Shown here: positions 6,311 through 44,099 of the stretch, piece by piece
How the letters are laid out: the number at the start of each line of letters is the position of its first letter
Position numbering within the stretch: position 1 is the stretch's first letter
From: a virus
IMG/VR virus record: IMGVR_UViG_3300036944_001167
Span: 20,478 to 84,477 of that record
Strand: one strand, 5' to 3'
Length of the DNA: 64,000 nt
Notes under the pieces: generated by a model
Told to the model about the DNA's origin: nothing
The model's database searches: none
What the model saw: only the letters and a program-made list of their open reading frames with translations
Translations under genes and position numbers: made by a program

Positions 6311-6656
6311 AGTGACATTCCACGACTAGCACAGCTTGGGTTTGTTTACTGACTCGAAGGTCACACTGACTCATGTGCTCTCCTAGGTAGTGGAACAGTA
6401 CGTGCTCCAACGCATTCATGTAATCTAGGTACTGTTGGTGTAGGTGGGTCACCGTTTCCGAGTACGCCACCCCTTCATCACCTAAGACCCGATCAAAGAA
6501 TAAGTCGGCTAACACTTGACCGTCGCCCCTATTACCTAAGAGTTTCACAGCCAAACAACACAAGCTTTGCGACGACTCATTTAAGTACGTCAAGAGTTTA
6601 AGGGAGGGAGGTGGTAGTTCGGAGTTCGGGATTGCCAACACCACCACCGGACTCAT
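6246..6656 (-). CDS. Hypothetical protein, 136 aa
   Basis: Starts at ATG 6656 in an ATGA overlap with the stop of the upstream gene, a typical sign of coupled translation. The N-terminal half is helical (LLTYLNESSQSLCCLAVKLL) and the C-terminal part contains a strand pair (SQCDLRVSKQTQAVLVVECHYD). The last 65 nt also encode the start of the downstream gene in another frame. No recognised domain. Confidence 0.65.
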   Translation of the reverse strand: MSPVVVLAIPNSELPPPSLKLLTYLNESSQSLCCLAVKLLGNRGDGQVLADLFFDRVLGDEGVAYSETVTHLHQQYLDYMNALEHVLFHYLGEHMSQCDLRVSKQTQAVLVVECHYDPIDPLESPDSDVRTRGATP

Positions 6657-7153
6657 CGCATTGCTTCCAGAGCACGGCGCACGCGTTCGGGTACGTAGTC
6701 ACCGTTGTCTTCTGCTTCTTCCAACCACTCCTGTGCTTGTTCCTCAATATTGAAGGTGACAGGCGCAGCTCGCTCACGAAGGATTTCCACTAAGGTATCT
6801 CCCCGTCGAATCAGACGAAAGTTACAGACGTACTCGCTGATGTCGTACTCGAAGCTGAGGTTGAAGATTTGGTTCATCTGGTCACGCACCGCATCGAAGA
6901 TCTCTTCGAGTTGGGTCGTCTCCAGTCCGTAATCAGCGATTTGTTTCTTGATGACTTCACAACACGCCATCACATTACCGCTTATACGGTTCTCTACCAG
7001 TTGGTAGAGGATCGACTCCAGGTTCAGGTACTGAGCAGCGGCACCGAAGTGATCGCATAGCGCAGTCTCCATAAACCCCAAGACCCGAGAGGTCTCAACC
7101 ACCACCCGTCTAGGGTTTGATGGTGCTTCGGTATTTGTCCCAGAATAGTGCAC
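6653..7153 (-). CDS. Hypothetical helical protein, 166 aa
   Basis: Starts at ATG 7153, 44 nt inside the upstream gene. Mostly helical (RVLGFMETALCDHFGAAAQYL, LESILYQLVENRISGN, TTQLEEIFDAVRDQMNQIF), with a beta segment near residues 104-120 (YDISEYVCNFRLIRRGDTLV) and an acidic C-terminal helix (EEQAQEWLEEAEDNGD). No family is recognised. It belongs to the overlapping operon that runs from 7631 to 4654. Confidence 0.7.
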   Translation of the reverse strand: MHYSGTNTEAPSNPRRVVVETSRVLGFMETALCDHFGAAAQYLNLESILYQLVENRISGNVMACCEVIKKQIADYGLETTQLEEIFDAVRDQMNQIFNLSFEYDISEYVCNFRLIRRGDTLVEILRERAAPVTFNIEEQAQEWLEEAEDNGDYVPERVRRALEAMR

Positions 7154-7631
7154 GGTAATCTTCCCCGCGATTCAAAATGTAACTGTTACCCATCTGCTTG
7201 AGTGTGGCGTGATGCCAACTGGGTTCAATTGAGAAGGAGCTGGCAAGGTGGTCTTGGAGGAAACTGTCCAGAGGTTCGATCACCTCAAGCTCAATGATTT
7301 CACCCCATTTGAGCAAAGACGGGTTGGGATTTTTGGTTACGCCGACCACATTGGCAAAACCAGGAAAGATCCGTGCGATCAGACTCTCCATAACCTCGAC
7401 TTCAAAGGATACTAACATATCCTTACGGTCCACCAGATTCAGCTCCTGCTCATCTTCATACCACAACATTAGATCACGCAAACGCATGATAAAGAGGTGC
7501 CGCACCACGTGGGTACACACCGAGTTGCTAAAACGCAATTCTTCTTTCGGGATCATCCCTTCTTCGATGATGTCGTGAAGTCTTGCCTTTAGGAACTCAA
7601 CCCAATCACGGGTGGGGATAACGTATTTCAC
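7110..7631 (-). CDS. Hypothetical protein, first gene of an overlapping operon, 173 aa
   Basis: The start codon is GTG (7629-7631), preceded by AAAGGATTAACCT. The protein has an N-terminal helical half (WVEFLKARLHDIIEEGMIP, then VVRHLFIMRLRDLMLWYEDE) and a mixed C-terminal half that ends with a basic WDKYRSTIKP. No family is recognised. It leads a run of six co-directional genes whose ends overlap by 4 to 65 nt, so the products are probably made in fixed proportion and may act in one complex. Confidence 0.7.
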   Translation of the reverse strand: MKYVIPTRDWVEFLKARLHDIIEEGMIPKEELRFSNSVCTHVVRHLFIMRLRDLMLWYEDEQELNLVDRKDMLVSFEVEVMESLIARIFPGFANVVGVTKNPNPSLLKWGEIIELEVIEPLDSFLQDHLASSFSIEPSWHHATLKQMGNSYILNRGEDYRALFWDKYRSTIKP

Positions 7632-8204
7632 AGGTTAATCCTTTCTTTAAAGGGGTCGGCCACTTCACTAAGATGTTATAGGTTTGAAACTTCTTAGGAT
7701 GCGTTACAAGGGGTTCTCTATAAAATACGTGGTCAGGTATTGTTTAACAGACGAAAACGTTATCTGGCGCTTCCTAGAGGGCTTATAAAGGATTTAAGGA
7801 AAAGGCGGCATAAAGGGAGGGGCGAACCCCTCCCTCTACACCCCACCTTCTGGGTGGAAAGGAGTAAACTGACCGGCCTGGTAACGTACGAAGACTTCCC
7901 CTTAAGCAGCCCTGTACCTACCAGCGATGTTCTCTGTACGACACAACACCGTTCCCGAGTCGTTGTTGCATCAGAACATACACCAGCCTCGTTCACCCAC
8001 TGAAAAACCGCTACCCCGCCCTACGGATTGTAATAACTTTGCTCGCTCCACCGTGCGCAAACAAACAAATGAACGGTGGCAAAGTCCGGGTCACTTCTGT
8101 ATTCATCCACACAGCTTTCACCGAGACCCATAACTCGGTTATCCGTACACACGGAGCAGCGCCATAGACGTTGCCAGCGGAGAACACTCGGTGTTAATCC
8201 ATTG
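7632..8204. other. Gene-free interval with several hairpins
   Basis: I find no convincing protein-coding frame here: the available frames are arginine/proline-rich and run through hairpins. The interval contains a strong hairpin at 7814-7835 preceded by GGCATAAA, a second hairpin near 7843-7857 (CCACC-TTCTG-GGTGG), another at 8119-8139 (ACCGAG...CTCGGT), and on the plus strand a terminator with ten T at 8205-8232. A plus-strand non-coding transcript ending at that terminator is possible. Confidence 0.5.
7814..7835 (-). terminator. Strong hairpin with GGCATAAA/TTTATGCC tag
   Basis: AGGGAGGGG and CCCCTCCCT pair around a CGAA-type loop. On the minus strand the hairpin is followed by TTTATGCCGCC. 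No gene is visible just upstream on the minus strand, so it would end an RNA reading from the gene-free interval to its right. Confidence 0.55.
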
Positions 8205-14717: not shown

Positions 14718-15473
14718 ATGACTCTTAAAAAACCCCCGTATCAAGAAGGTCCCGATAGCACCTTCCGTCATATGGACAAAGATTACCAACTCGACCCCCT
14801 ACTAGCCGATGCTGCGAAGTTACCTGTCAAACAAGTCCATACCAACCAATTGGAATGGAACTTACGTTTCGGGGAACCGGACCCCATCCGCTTGAAAGAG
14901 GCTGATACCCGGTACCCCATCATCATCACTGAAGAGCCTCGGTTTGGTTGGGTGATCCTTGATGGCTTTCACCGCTTCTGTAAGCTGATCGAACAAAAAC
15001 GCACTACCTGTTCGGTACGGATCATTCCCAGAGAGTGGCTCAAACGCTACAGGGTGTCTCTGGAGAGCGATTCACCCATCACGGTAGGTCGAGCTACCTT
15101 AGATCAAGCTAAAGCCTTCCTGGAGCCTCTGGGGATCATTTACAACCTCCCTCAAATGGGTGCCATCAACTACTCAGACGTCCCGCACCAATACACCTTC
15201 GCCTACCAGCAAGAACAACCCGTAGGACTTCTGATCACCACCACCTTACACAACGACTTCGTGTCTTTGAACGTCAACCCAGAAGCAGACTACATCCACG
15301 TAGGCGGTACGCTGTTAAATTCTGTAAGGATCAATCAGGTATTGGTCAGGACAGAGGACGAGGCGTTAAACAGCCTACTCAAGTATGCAGGGTATCGCCT
15401 GGCTGAGTCTTTGGTGAAGTATAACCTTTACCGTAAAGTCTTCTCTGCCTCTGAGTTCCTCTCTATTCAGTGA
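14718..15473 (+). CDS. ParB-like domain fused to a GNAT-like domain, 251 aa
   Basis: The N-terminal part (about residues 35-103) is a ParB/sulfiredoxin-fold domain: VKQVHTNQLEWNL, then YPIIIT, then GWVILDGFHRFCKL with the DGxHR motif at 82-86. In phages this fold is used for DNA binding, nicking, CTP binding or as a kinase-like module. The C-terminal part (about 120-250) resembles a GNAT acetyltransferase core: QPVGLLITTT followed by FVSLNVNPEADYIHVGGTLLNSV, where the acetyl-CoA loop would lie, although the usual R/Q-x-x-G-x-G/A signature is degenerate. The ATG follows TAAGGATTTCTTT. The function of the combination is unknown. Confidence 0.55.
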   Translation: MTLKKPPYQEGPDSTFRHMDKDYQLDPLLADAAKLPVKQVHTNQLEWNLRFGEPDPIRLKEADTRYPIIITEEPRFGWVILDGFHRFCKLIEQKRTTCSVRIIPREWLKRYRVSLESDSPITVGRATLDQAKAFLEPLGIIYNLPQMGAINYSDVPHQYTFAYQQEQPVGLLITTTLHNDFVSLNVNPEADYIHVGGTLLNSVRINQVLVRTEDEALNSLLKYAGYRLAESLVKYNLYRKVFSASEFLSIQ

Positions 15474-15497
15474 AAAAAAAAAGCAGGGCATAAAAGC

Positions 15498-15522
15498 TAC
15501 AGGGGAGCTAGGCTCCCCTGTA
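15498..15522. terminator. Bidirectional hairpin flanked by GGCATAAA and TATGCC
   Basis: TACAGGGGAGC and GCTCCCCTGTA pair around CTAG-type loop bases. On the left GGGCATAAA, on the right TATGCCG. A run of A at 15474-15483 serves as a T-run for minus-strand transcripts. It separates two convergent genes. Confidence 0.8.
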
Positions 15523-15527
15523 TGCCG

Positions 15528-15857
15528 TTACCACACGTAGTTACGAGCAGCAGTAGCCGCTTGAGAGAAGTCCAAGTCGAACAAGAACGTTCCCACAGGC
15601 GTTACCGCCTGATACCGATGTGCACTCGGGGTTGGGTTAGACCGACGAGCAAAGAACTCAGGGTCTTCCAACTGTACCAAGACTTCATGATGACGTCCTA
15701 CCACGTCTACCAGAGCACCCAGTACTTTAGGTTCCAGTCGCCCAGTCAGCTCCAGGTTACGACTAGGGTTTTCGCCGATTTTCTCACGGATGACCCGTAA
15801 GGCTTGAGCGTAGCGTGCACAGACGACTTCGTTATCTTTCCAGACGTTGTTTTTCAT
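15528..15857 (-). CDS. Hypothetical protein, 109 aa
   Basis: The protein has an N-terminal helix (CARYAQALRVIREKIGENP), a strand-helix part (LELTGRLEPKVLGALVDVVG) and an aromatic C-terminus (VGTFLFDLDF, then ARNYVW). No family is recognised. No Shine-Dalgarno sequence precedes ATG 15857. Upstream lies a 475-nt gene-free region with an early-type promoter-like element at 16173-16180, so this gene may have a long leader or be read through from a non-coding RNA. Confidence 0.6.
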   Translation of the reverse strand: MKNNVWKDNEVVCARYAQALRVIREKIGENPSRNLELTGRLEPKVLGALVDVVGRHHEVLVQLEDPEFFARRSNPTPSAHRYQAVTPVGTFLFDLDFSQAATAARNYVW

Positions 15858-15979
15858 GTTAAGTGTTGGCTCGTTGTTGTTGGTTCACTTACACCCCAAC
15901 TCCACTGGAGGTTACGTTGGTTAGGTGCTTGTGTTTAATAGGGTTAGTTAACAGTAGAGACGTAAAAGGTTTTTCAAAA

Positions 15980-16172
15980 GCATAGGAAGGGAATCTTCGA
16001 TTCCCTGCTCTTTAGCCCCCTTTCCCCCGCCAGTTCATGGCCTTTACGCTACGCTCCAAGACCATTCACGCGAGTGAAATGGGATTGGTTTAGCTGTCAG
16101 TCAGTCCTAGTATCTCCGCTTACGCTTCGCTACTACTCCTTCCTTCCGCTTTTATGTCAAAGCCATACCGAA
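15980..16172 (-). ncRNA. Candidate early non-coding RNA of about 190 nt
   Basis: On the minus strand an AT-rich segment with TACATTAC (16173-16180) resembles the TATATTAC early promoter. Downstream there is no coding frame but several hairpins: TTCAC-TCGC-GTGAA near 16069-16082 and a strong 8-bp hairpin AGGGAATC-GAA-GATTCCCT at 15987-16005. The latter is followed by TTCCTATGCTTTT, resembling the terminator tag of this phage. GCGAAGCGTAA and GCGTAGCGTAA repeat within it. The boundaries are inferred. Confidence 0.4.
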
Positions 16173-16180
16173 GTAATGTA
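16173..16180 (-). promoter_or_regulatory. Candidate early promoter TACATTAC
   Basis: Differs at one position from the TATATTAC element found upstream of the early operons in this window. The flanking upstream side on the minus strand is T-rich (AGTATTTTTT), as at the better matches. Confidence 0.4.
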
Positions 16181-16297
16181 AAAAAATACTGACACAGGAA
16201 AACAAGACTAGATAACCCTAAGAGATACCCCAGAGGGGATCTAAAAAAGCAAACATTTATCTATGCCCCGCCGCCCCGCGCTGCCCGCCGGCATAAC

Positions 16298-16326
16298 CGG
16301 GCGCAACGGCCGAAGCCGCCCGCCCA
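16298..16326 (-). terminator. GC-rich hairpin followed by TTATGCC
   Basis: On the minus strand GGGCG...GGC-TTCG-GCC...CGCCC forms an imperfect GC-rich hairpin, followed by GGTTATGCCGGC. It lies directly after the stop of the 16333-16821 gene. Confidence 0.6.
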
Positions 16327-16332
16327 GCCTAC

Positions 16333-16821
16333 TTAGCACGCTGTGGCTACGTACAAGGCAGCATCTTCCAGAGAAGTCACTACCGCGATGCCTTTCTGTC
16401 GCAATGCGTCCACCGCCAGCGCCTCAGGACGCTTGGTGACCACCACCGAGTTCTCAGGGTTGTTCATCGCAGCGTTCAGAAATTCTTCCTGAACAGCCTG
16501 ACCCAGATCCTCTTCAGGCAGTACATACACCTGAGTGGCTTCACTCAACAACTCTTCGGTGAGTTCGGCTGCATGCTCTTGAAGCTGGATGGTTTCCAGC
16601 GAAGGGATTTCTACACCCCGCCCAGGTAGATTCCATACCCGGAACTCTTTGTAAGAGTCCTGGAGGATCTGCTCCCATTCACCCGATTGGATGTTGCCAT
16701 GGAAGATCACACTGCGTTCAGGCTCGAAGCCCTCGAAGAGAGGATGTTCGACGCTGTCGTCGTCCACCACGCTTTCTTCGTGATTTTCCATACTGAGTTG
16801 GAAGATGTCACGGACGCTCAT
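16333..16821 (-). CDS. Possible nucleoside 2-deoxyribosyltransferase-like protein, 162 aa
   Basis: After an acidic N-terminal tail (about 35 residues), the protein reads SVIFHGNIQSGEWEQILQDS, a strand-G-W-helix start, then a central TQVYVLPEEDLGQAVQEEF and a final SVVVTKRPEALAVDALRQK then GIAVVTSLEDA. The order resembles flavodoxin-like nucleoside deoxyribosyltransferase relatives. The catalytic Glu of true enzymes cannot be placed with confidence, so this may only share the fold. It is the last gene of the early operon 18206-16333. GAGGTACCGACA precedes ATG 16821. Confidence 0.4.
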   Translation of the reverse strand: MSVRDIFQLSMENHEESVVDDDSVEHPLFEGFEPERSVIFHGNIQSGEWEQILQDSYKEFRVWNLPGRGVEIPSLETIQLQEHAAELTEELLSEATQVYVLPEEDLGQAVQEEFLNAAMNNPENSVVVTKRPEALAVDALRQKGIAVVTSLEDAALYVATAC

Positions 16822-18265: not shown

Positions 18266-18273
18266 GTAATATG
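18266..18273 (-). promoter_or_regulatory. Early promoter, CATATTAC
   Basis: AT-rich sequence then CATATTACTCAAGGG on the minus strand, one base from TATATTAC, the element reported for phiKZ early promoters. A hairpin GAATAAG...CTTATTC follows within about 10 nt. It drives the 18206-16333 gene set. Confidence 0.6.
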
Positions 18274-18329
18274 TATTTGAAAATATTTTATTTGGTATCC
18301 TGTGACTCCCAAGCCTTAGGACATAAACC

Positions 18330-25971: not shown

Positions 25972-28188
25972 TTATGCCGCCCGACGCCCGGTAAGGCCAC
26001 CACGCCCCATGATCTTACCCCACGGGTTGAGGCTCTTCTGAACATGCGCCGCGTTGTGTGCACGCGCAGCTTTGATGTTGCGCAGACTACGTTCTTCCGA
26101 GGCCTTCTGGATCAGGCTGGACAAGCTGGTAACGGTGTCCTCATCCACACTGTCCATAGCGGCCAGTTTACGCGTGAGGTGTTCAAGCTTGGCTTCCAAC
26201 CGCGCCACCACAAAGGTCTCTTTGGCATTAACCAACAGTTCGTAGACTTCTTCCATCTCCTTCTTCATCTTGTTAAACTGTGCCCGCTGATACAGCTCTT
26301 CAGGCGTCAGTTGTTTGTTGTTGCTAGTCACTGCAGACAACAGCTTACTGGTATCGATTCCATAGTGATCCAAATTACGACCCATGGTCACCAACCACTG
26401 TGCCAACAACCACGCAATGACCGTGTCATCATGACCGGAGGCCGCGTGATCGATTCGACCCTTCTTCACCACCAACCCACGAATCTCTTCAGACAACTGC
26501 TTGTCGTGTACCAAGTGCCCGCTGTCTTTCGCCGCATTCTGAAGAACCGGTCCGTAGAGTAGCGCACGGGTTTCGGCATTCGTGTTAAAGCCAAAGTAGC
26601 CTTTAGTCTCGTCGTAGAATTGTTCCGTCCGAGTACCCATGGGTTTACAGATGGTCTTGTAAAGGTCTGCTTTCTCATTGGAGTTCTCCACAATACGGTT
26701 GAAGATACGACGGAACGGATCTTCGCCCATGGCTGGCAACTTCAGGATCAAGGCATCAACGATCATCTGACCAGTCGACTTCTTCTCAGGAATCAAGGTG
26801 ATGTTCTTAAACCGCACCAAGAACTCTGCCAAGAAGTTAGAGAACCGAATCAGGTTAGTCTCATTGACATTGAACGCACCCACCACCGACAAGTCCTTGG
26901 TGTTAATGATCGTCCCTGCAATCCCGTCTCGACCCACCGCTTCAGAGGTATCCAACCCCAAGATGAACTGGTCGGTCTGCGTCAAGCGCTGAAGGCTGAC
27001 TTCATCGACATACCAACGCACCACGTACAACTCTTTGGACACGAAGTTGTACATCACATCCCGTACCGAGTTTTTGATCATCTCGTTGAGCTGTGGGGTC
27101 AACGGCGAGCTTTGTGTACCAGACGTCCAGACGTTGAAGAAGTCGCGGTTTGCTCCATCACCATAGGAGTTTGCCTCCGCCATGGTCTTGTACAACCACT
27201 CGTCGGTGTAACCCAATTGGCGGTGCGAGAAGGTTGCGTTGATCAGGATCTTACGACCAGGGTTGTTCTTCGCCACCATCTCATGGAAGGCTGCTTTGTC
27301 TACACAGTCAAAGTACAGTTCAGTCCACTTAGCACCGCCGTGGATCATGTCGTACATGTACTTGCCGTCGCGGTCATCCTTCTTACCAGCGGTTGTGGTG
27401 AAGATGTTACCGTGTGGACGGTTGTGTTTACGGGCTTCTTCACGCGCTGCGTTACCGGCCGCCAGCGCAGCAGGCAAAGTGATGCCAATGAAGTTAATGA
27501 ACGGACCTTCGTCGATGTGGCTGATTGGTGAGGTCTGTCCACGACCCAGGTTGTTAGCACTGGATTCGGAGTTTTGAGCAACACCTGTGGAGTAGGTGTT
27601 CTCCCACTTCTTACAGGTGACTTCGAATTGGTTATCAGAGTCTGTACGACCCTTAGCGACCAAATAAGGTGGTAATAGATCCCGGATTTTCTTCAGACGT
27701 TCAACGTTAGCCTTACGCAGAGCATCGTCCTTTGTGATCATGTTGATACGAGAGTTACTCGTACCCAAGAACAGTAACCAGATCATCAAACAGTCAGTAG
27801 ATACCGATTTACCTGTCTGACGAGGTTGGATCAAGGCGATGTCCATGTTGTTGATAAAGGTCCATGTGGTCGCCATGTTCCCCCGGTTGGCTTTGTAGGG
27901 AACCGGGTTAGGGCCTGCCACAGGTGGAATGCGCACTACTTCACGTAAGTAGTACCAAATGTTGTACCGGCACTCCAAACCAATCTTCATCTTGTAGGCA
28001 TCGGACAACACTTCAGAATGTGGGTCAACCCCAATCAATTCCGGTTGCATAATCGCCAAGGGCCACAGGCAGTTTTTAATCCCCATCTCTTTTAGCAGGG
28101 AGCTGTAGCGTAGGAAAGATTCGTTCTTTGTGGAATAATCCACTCTGGCCATCGGGTAACGATGCCAATCGTTTCCAAACAAAATCAT
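25972..28188 (-). CDS. terL: Terminase large subunit, 738 aa
   Basis: Packages DNA into the prohead. The ATPase has Walker A QPRQTGKS (residues 121-128) and Walker B HIDEGPF with Asp-Glu at 226-227. The coupling segment is near FTTTAG (263-268). The RNase H-like nuclease has ILGLDTSEAVG (Asp413), IPEKKSTGQ (Glu468) and the late ASGHDDTVIAW (Asp587, Asp588). All the expected acidic residues are present. The C-terminal about 100 residues are a charged helix (KMKKEMEEVYELLVNAKE, then a basic tail) that may bind the portal. No intein or intron is visible. The gene lies next to three large virion genes and the sheath, as in phiKZ. Confidence 0.95.
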   Translation of the reverse strand: MILFGNDWHRYPMARVDYSTKNESFLRYSSLLKEMGIKNCLWPLAIMQPELIGVDPHSEVLSDAYKMKIGLECRYNIWYYLREVVRIPPVAGPNPVPYKANRGNMATTWTFINNMDIALIQPRQTGKSVSTDCLMIWLLFLGTSNSRINMITKDDALRKANVERLKKIRDLLPPYLVAKGRTDSDNQFEVTCKKWENTYSTGVAQNSESSANNLGRGQTSPISHIDEGPFINFIGITLPAALAAGNAAREEARKHNRPHGNIFTTTAGKKDDRDGKYMYDMIHGGAKWTELYFDCVDKAAFHEMVAKNNPGRKILINATFSHRQLGYTDEWLYKTMAEANSYGDGANRDFFNVWTSGTQSSPLTPQLNEMIKNSVRDVMYNFVSKELYVVRWYVDEVSLQRLTQTDQFILGLDTSEAVGRDGIAGTIINTKDLSVVGAFNVNETNLIRFSNFLAEFLVRFKNITLIPEKKSTGQMIVDALILKLPAMGEDPFRRIFNRIVENSNEKADLYKTICKPMGTRTEQFYDETKGYFGFNTNAETRALLYGPVLQNAAKDSGHLVHDKQLSEEIRGLVVKKGRIDHAASGHDDTVIAWLLAQWLVTMGRNLDHYGIDTSKLLSAVTSNNKQLTPEELYQRAQFNKMKKEMEEVYELLVNAKETFVVARLEAKLEHLTRKLAAMDSVDEDTVTSLSSLIQKASEERSLRNIKAARAHNAAHVQKSLNPWGKIMGRGGLTGRRAA

Positions 28189-44091: not shown

Positions 44092-44099
44092 GTAATATA
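44092..44099 (-). promoter_or_regulatory. Early promoter, TATATTAC
   Basis: AAATATATTTAAACC then TATATTACCTATTCG on the minus strand. Two hairpins follow in the leader: CTATTCGAATAG and GATGA-AGC-TCATC. It drives the Ntn-hydrolase gene. Confidence 0.75.

Follow-up and report, generated by a model that had tools for sequence, protein, structure and literature searches.

The 64,000-nt stretch that we analyzed (the window) contains a gene-free minus-strand interval of 475 nt, hereafter the slot, which follows a gene for a 162-aa protein and precedes a gene for a 109-aa protein (Table 1). The window comes from a phiKZ-like jumbo phage whose 84-kb virus record encodes proteins with matches to jumbo-phage families: multisubunit RNA polymerase subunits, DNA polymerase, terminase and head proteins. 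Identity to the nearest annotated phages is <60% for the RNA polymerase protein that we compared, and no relatives were found in sequenced bacterial genomes. A 738-aa terminase-like protein (window 25972-28188) lacks a Pfam match and is matched by PHROGs terminase families over residues 1-216 only.

As the original prediction stated, the slot is non-coding: no ORF of at least 50 aa lies wholly within it. By crude gene calls it is the eighth longest gap in the near-twin genome described below, where the median gap is 58 nt; it is thus long but not unique, as several gaps are longer. The window had no match to any family in Rfam 15, and a tRNA search of the slot found none. Homologues of the 162-aa protein, which has no Pfam match, are confined to the twin and to seven sister contigs. 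The 109-aa protein has a remote homologue at the corresponding position in the sister clade (profile E 3.4e-6, from a two-sequence search). Downstream of the 162-aa gene, positions 16262-16330 form a very GC-rich patch (the genome is 51% GC), which the terminator hairpin of that gene explains in part.

Table 1 Features of the slot, its surroundings and the sister contigs.
Feature	Coordinates	Strand	Remarks
109-aa gene, downstream of the slot	15528..15857	-	
Gene-free slot, 475 nt	15858..16332	-	Between the 162-aa and 109-aa genes
Orphan phage-type terminator (probable)	15980..16006	-	8-bp hairpin (16006-15988) + TC + CTATGC
Candidate untranslated RNA segment	15980..16290	-	Inferred; bounded by two phage-type terminators
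TACATTAC, proposed promoter	16173..16180	-	Not supported
Phage-type terminator of the 162-aa gene	16291..16325	-	UUCG-capped hairpin + GG + TTATGC
162-aa gene, upstream of the slot	16333..16821	-	
Genuine early-type promoter	18266..18298	-	A-tract + CATATTAC + 6N + G; profile score 56.0, rank 6
Sister element copies	L106:6970-7275, L107:6880-7185, L108:6907-7225, L109:6882-7190, L110:6972-7265, L111:7797-8108, L112:6872-7185	+	

We found one near-twin in IMG/VR, a 221-kb contig (G001) that carries the slot at 99% identity (468 of 475 positions, with zero differences within 15924-16223). This identity is no evidence of constraint because the neighboring genes are equally close. The two near-identical copies are the only known slot sequences. 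Between convergent genes (window ~15473-15539, L002 ~6319-7021), the twin has about 630 additional bases holding a possible 137-aa gene that the window lacks.

Analysis of gene ends revealed a signature shared across the lineage of this phage, a GC hairpin, in many cases with a UUCG cap, and then [TC]TATGC. Both TTATGC and CTATGC are enriched directly after GC-rich hairpins, some 25-50 nt past stop codons. When we counted stems of at least 8 bp with [TC]TATGC within 6 nt, there were 38 to 49 copies per genome (38 in G001, 49 in G003 and 47 in G008), and 82-87% of them lay ≤80 nt after a stop codon (32/38, 40/49 and 41/47, respectively). Under a looser limit (stem of at least 7 bp), 39 copies were seen versus 0-6 in shuffled sequences. 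These motifs also lie between convergent genes, a setting in which they cannot act as promoters of the next gene. The data support the signature as the terminator of this lineage.

Two hairpins of the slot match this signature. The 162-aa gene has its own strong terminator 36 nt after the stop codon, and the second hairpin lies 0.3 kb beyond it. The 8-bp hairpin with its tail that had been described earlier is present (AGGGAATC-GAA-GATTCCCT at 16006-15988, minus strand, then TCCTATGCTTTT) and falls within the counting rule. We estimate that ~0.005 such copies would be expected by chance in a gap of this size, given 1-3 chance-like copies per genome. Like the terminators of the lineage, it has an 8-bp stem and then CTATGC on the minus strand. 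Unlike most of them, it does not directly follow a stop codon (the nearest on the same strand, that of the 162-aa gene, is 347 nt away) and it has fewer G-C pairs. With 8 bp and 4 G-C pairs it is among the weakest copies by both length and G-C pairs, so we regard it as a probable, not a certain, phage-type terminator.

The original prediction also included a promoter-like element for its candidate early RNA. On the minus strand, this motif, TACATTAC, does occur (16180-16173), within a run of seven T residues, and has 7/8 bases in common with the TATATTAC core of phiKZ-like early (virion RNA polymerase, vRNAP) promoters. However, both its frequency and the profile of the phage's own early promoters speak against early-promoter status. 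Its frequency is at or below chance: we counted a single TACATTAC in the window, where 1.0 would be expected, and a single one in the 221-kb twin, against an expectation of 5.4. Ten early-promoter sites of the twin gave the consensus AATTAAAAAAATTTCAAATC-TATATTAC-6N-G with a GAATAGGATAC leader, an architecture of A-tract, RAYC, TATATTAC, six N and G, and the sister genomes carry the same motif. On the profile of these ten sites (training scores 38.6-65.8, leave-one-out scores 15-60), the TACATTAC site scored -37.7 and ranked 15,691 of 441,974 genome-wide. The A-tract and RAYC are missing upstream of its core, the core lacks the T at position 3, and TACATTAC-TTCGGT-A has A instead of G at +1 after the six N. 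Published phiKZ-like early promoters have G at +1 after 6N, and an AR9 study reports that the early (virion) RNA polymerase seems to tolerate deviations poorly (PMC5312081). The site thus fails every part of an early promoter except most of the core, and we rejected an early promoter at 16180; the designation of the candidate as an early RNA gene is not supported.

Real early promoters in the window lie at minus-strand positions 44099, 42988, 40288, 28986 and 18273, and the profile scan also found weaker copies of the same kind. The promoter at 18273 lies upstream of the operon leading to the slot. Transcripts from several early promoters begin with a GAATAGGATAC...GTATC leader, in which a 5' hairpin could form. 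A second motif search, seeded with ATGGTATA, converged on early promoters read as their reverse complement and was uninformative. The slot contains no host sigma-70-like promoter and no TATGA late-type motif. The late promoter motif of phiKZ is TATG (PMC4666361), and late transcription could in principle start at one of the TATG sites.

The short repeats noted earlier are present as TTACGCTACGCT and TTACGCTTCGCT, each 12 nt long with 11/12 positions identical. Minus-strand folding of the slot gave z-scores of -2.3 to -3.0 versus shuffles. This folding is not unusual, because random 193-nt windows of the phage have a mean z of -0.9 (sd 1.4) and 13% of them reach -2.3 or lower.

Scans with the 407-aa and 162-aa neighbors revealed seven sister IMG/VR contigs with the same gene order. 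All seven (7/7) carry, as a single copy per genome, a non-coding element of about 300 nt that immediately precedes the homologue of the 109-aa gene and has its orientation. In RNAalifold, the gene-sense alignment had an energy of -61.6 versus -43.1 for column shuffles (sd 4.2), and the reverse strand had -61.1 versus -37.3 (sd 4.0). In one helix, compensatory changes altered three pairs on both sides, a result reached by 0/500 shuffles. A second hairpin has its stem rebuilt from different sequences (GAGGC/GCCTC, GATGC/GCATC, GTGGTCT/AGACCAC), and its loop is a GNRA tetraloop (GCGA or GTGA) in 6/7 contigs, from which we infer that the gene-sense strand is favored. A coding origin was rejected, as indels are non-triplet and no frame is common to 7/7. 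Between L107 and L109 the element has 81% nucleotide identity and the downstream protein 28% amino acid identity; the element is conserved independently of the adjacent gene. It yielded no Rfam family (sub-threshold matches only, all outside the element) and is absent from the twin, LucasX and FLC9. A covariance model of the element (R1) had no match in 39 further, more distant jumbo-phage records, which is weak evidence. In L111, a 268-aa ORF (6944-7750) that by eye resembles an HNH homing endonuclease separates the element from the upstream gene as an insertion.

The slot occupies the position of the sister element, between the homologues of the 162-aa and 109-aa genes, and both are non-coding and of the same sense. 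The sisters differ in having an additional gene (~134-156 aa), which separates the element from the 162-aa homologue. Model R1 had no match in the twin, and its best hit in the window (3.3 bits, E ~0.5 in 1.5 kb) is not a match. Smith-Waterman (SW), nhmmer and covariance tests of homology were all non-significant. The slot and the sister element share a place but no homology that these comparisons could detect, and we do not equate them. A 15-nt slot match in three sister genomes, whose G008 copy is in an open, coding-like frame, was treated as chance, and an exact-pattern match in L029 was likewise dismissed.

We interpret the minus strand of the slot as the possible source of a short untranslated RNA, or transcript tail, that would end at the orphan phage-type terminator near 15980 and would not be the early vRNAP gene originally proposed. 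We give this reading a probability of about 0.4. A minus-strand untranslated RNA is plausible, though probably not vRNAP-early, because its 3' end fits the terminator class of the phage and the upstream gene is already strongly terminated. The transcript could originate in the early operon (promoter at 18273), with part of the transcription passing the 16291 terminator, or at a promoter of a class beyond recognition by the present profiles. The non-coding gap, the fit of both terminators to the signature and the failure of the proposed early promoter are observations, whereas the RNA itself and its action as RNA are putative, and the decoy role originally suggested for it would be conjectural. 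The sisters keep a conserved structured element in this gap and orientation, which makes an RNA-level role here likelier without proving it for the window phage.

The slot may alternatively be an ordinary spacer, with the 15980 hairpin as a back-up that terminates transcripts reading through from the 162-aa gene, and with no function of its own for the intervening sequence. We consider this somewhat unlikely. The negative searches for early, sigma-70-like and TATGA promoters, the ordinary folding, the longer gaps elsewhere (by crude gene calls) and a sequence unrecognizable in sister phages all agree with a spacer, but a 475-nt interval is far from the median gap, and the same slot in the sister clade is occupied by a conserved element. 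A structured leader of the 109-aa gene, starting in the slot and using the 15980 hairpin as an attenuator or processing site before 15857, is less probable still. The hairpin and the gene are on the same strand, 122 nt separate the hairpin tail from the start codon, and the gene has no other evident promoter. However, elsewhere this terminator class marks transcript ends, and the sister element evolves independently of the downstream protein, unlike a gene-specific leader.

Two further readings seem very improbable. The slot could be a diverged, inverted copy of the sister element with its RNA on the plus strand, where TAGCC, TTTACGCTA, a GCGA-capped hairpin (16066-16079) and TGTCA follow the sister order. 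The best local score was 28 (shuffles ~23.6, sd 3.4), yet 17-23 of 200 shuffles scored as high, the colinearity of the landmarks is not significant, profile and covariance searches were empty on both strands, and the terminator evidence indicates the minus strand. The slot could equally be a DNA element, such as a replication origin or packaging site. It is non-coding and single copy, and in the sister element both strands outperform column shuffles in folding, as expected of palindromic DNA. Against this, the GNRA loops of the sister element are on one strand and the extremes of cumulative GC skew lie away from both the slot and the sister element; we rejected an origin on the skew result.

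The sister-clade element outweighs the slot of the window phage, both as a finding and as a lead. A more ambitious proposal, which we consider doubtful, is that the clade reserves one fixed position of the early operon for an RNA locus, occupied by a new structured family in the sisters and by a different, self-terminated untranslated RNA in the window phage. The early-operon non-coding slot, which the sisters fill with a conserved structured element that Rfam lacks, offers a concrete target for RNA-level study, and the lineage-specific terminator signature helps to delimit transcription units when these uncultured phages are annotated. Knowledge of non-coding RNAs in nucleus-forming jumbo phages seems scant, with one review sentence in the literature searched. 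According to that 2026 review, phiKZ expresses non-coding RNAs (PMC13282480), so it is unsafe to call such an RNA new for this phage type, as had been suggested. The slot RNA candidate resembles these phiKZ RNAs in being a putative untranslated transcript from the same broad phage group.
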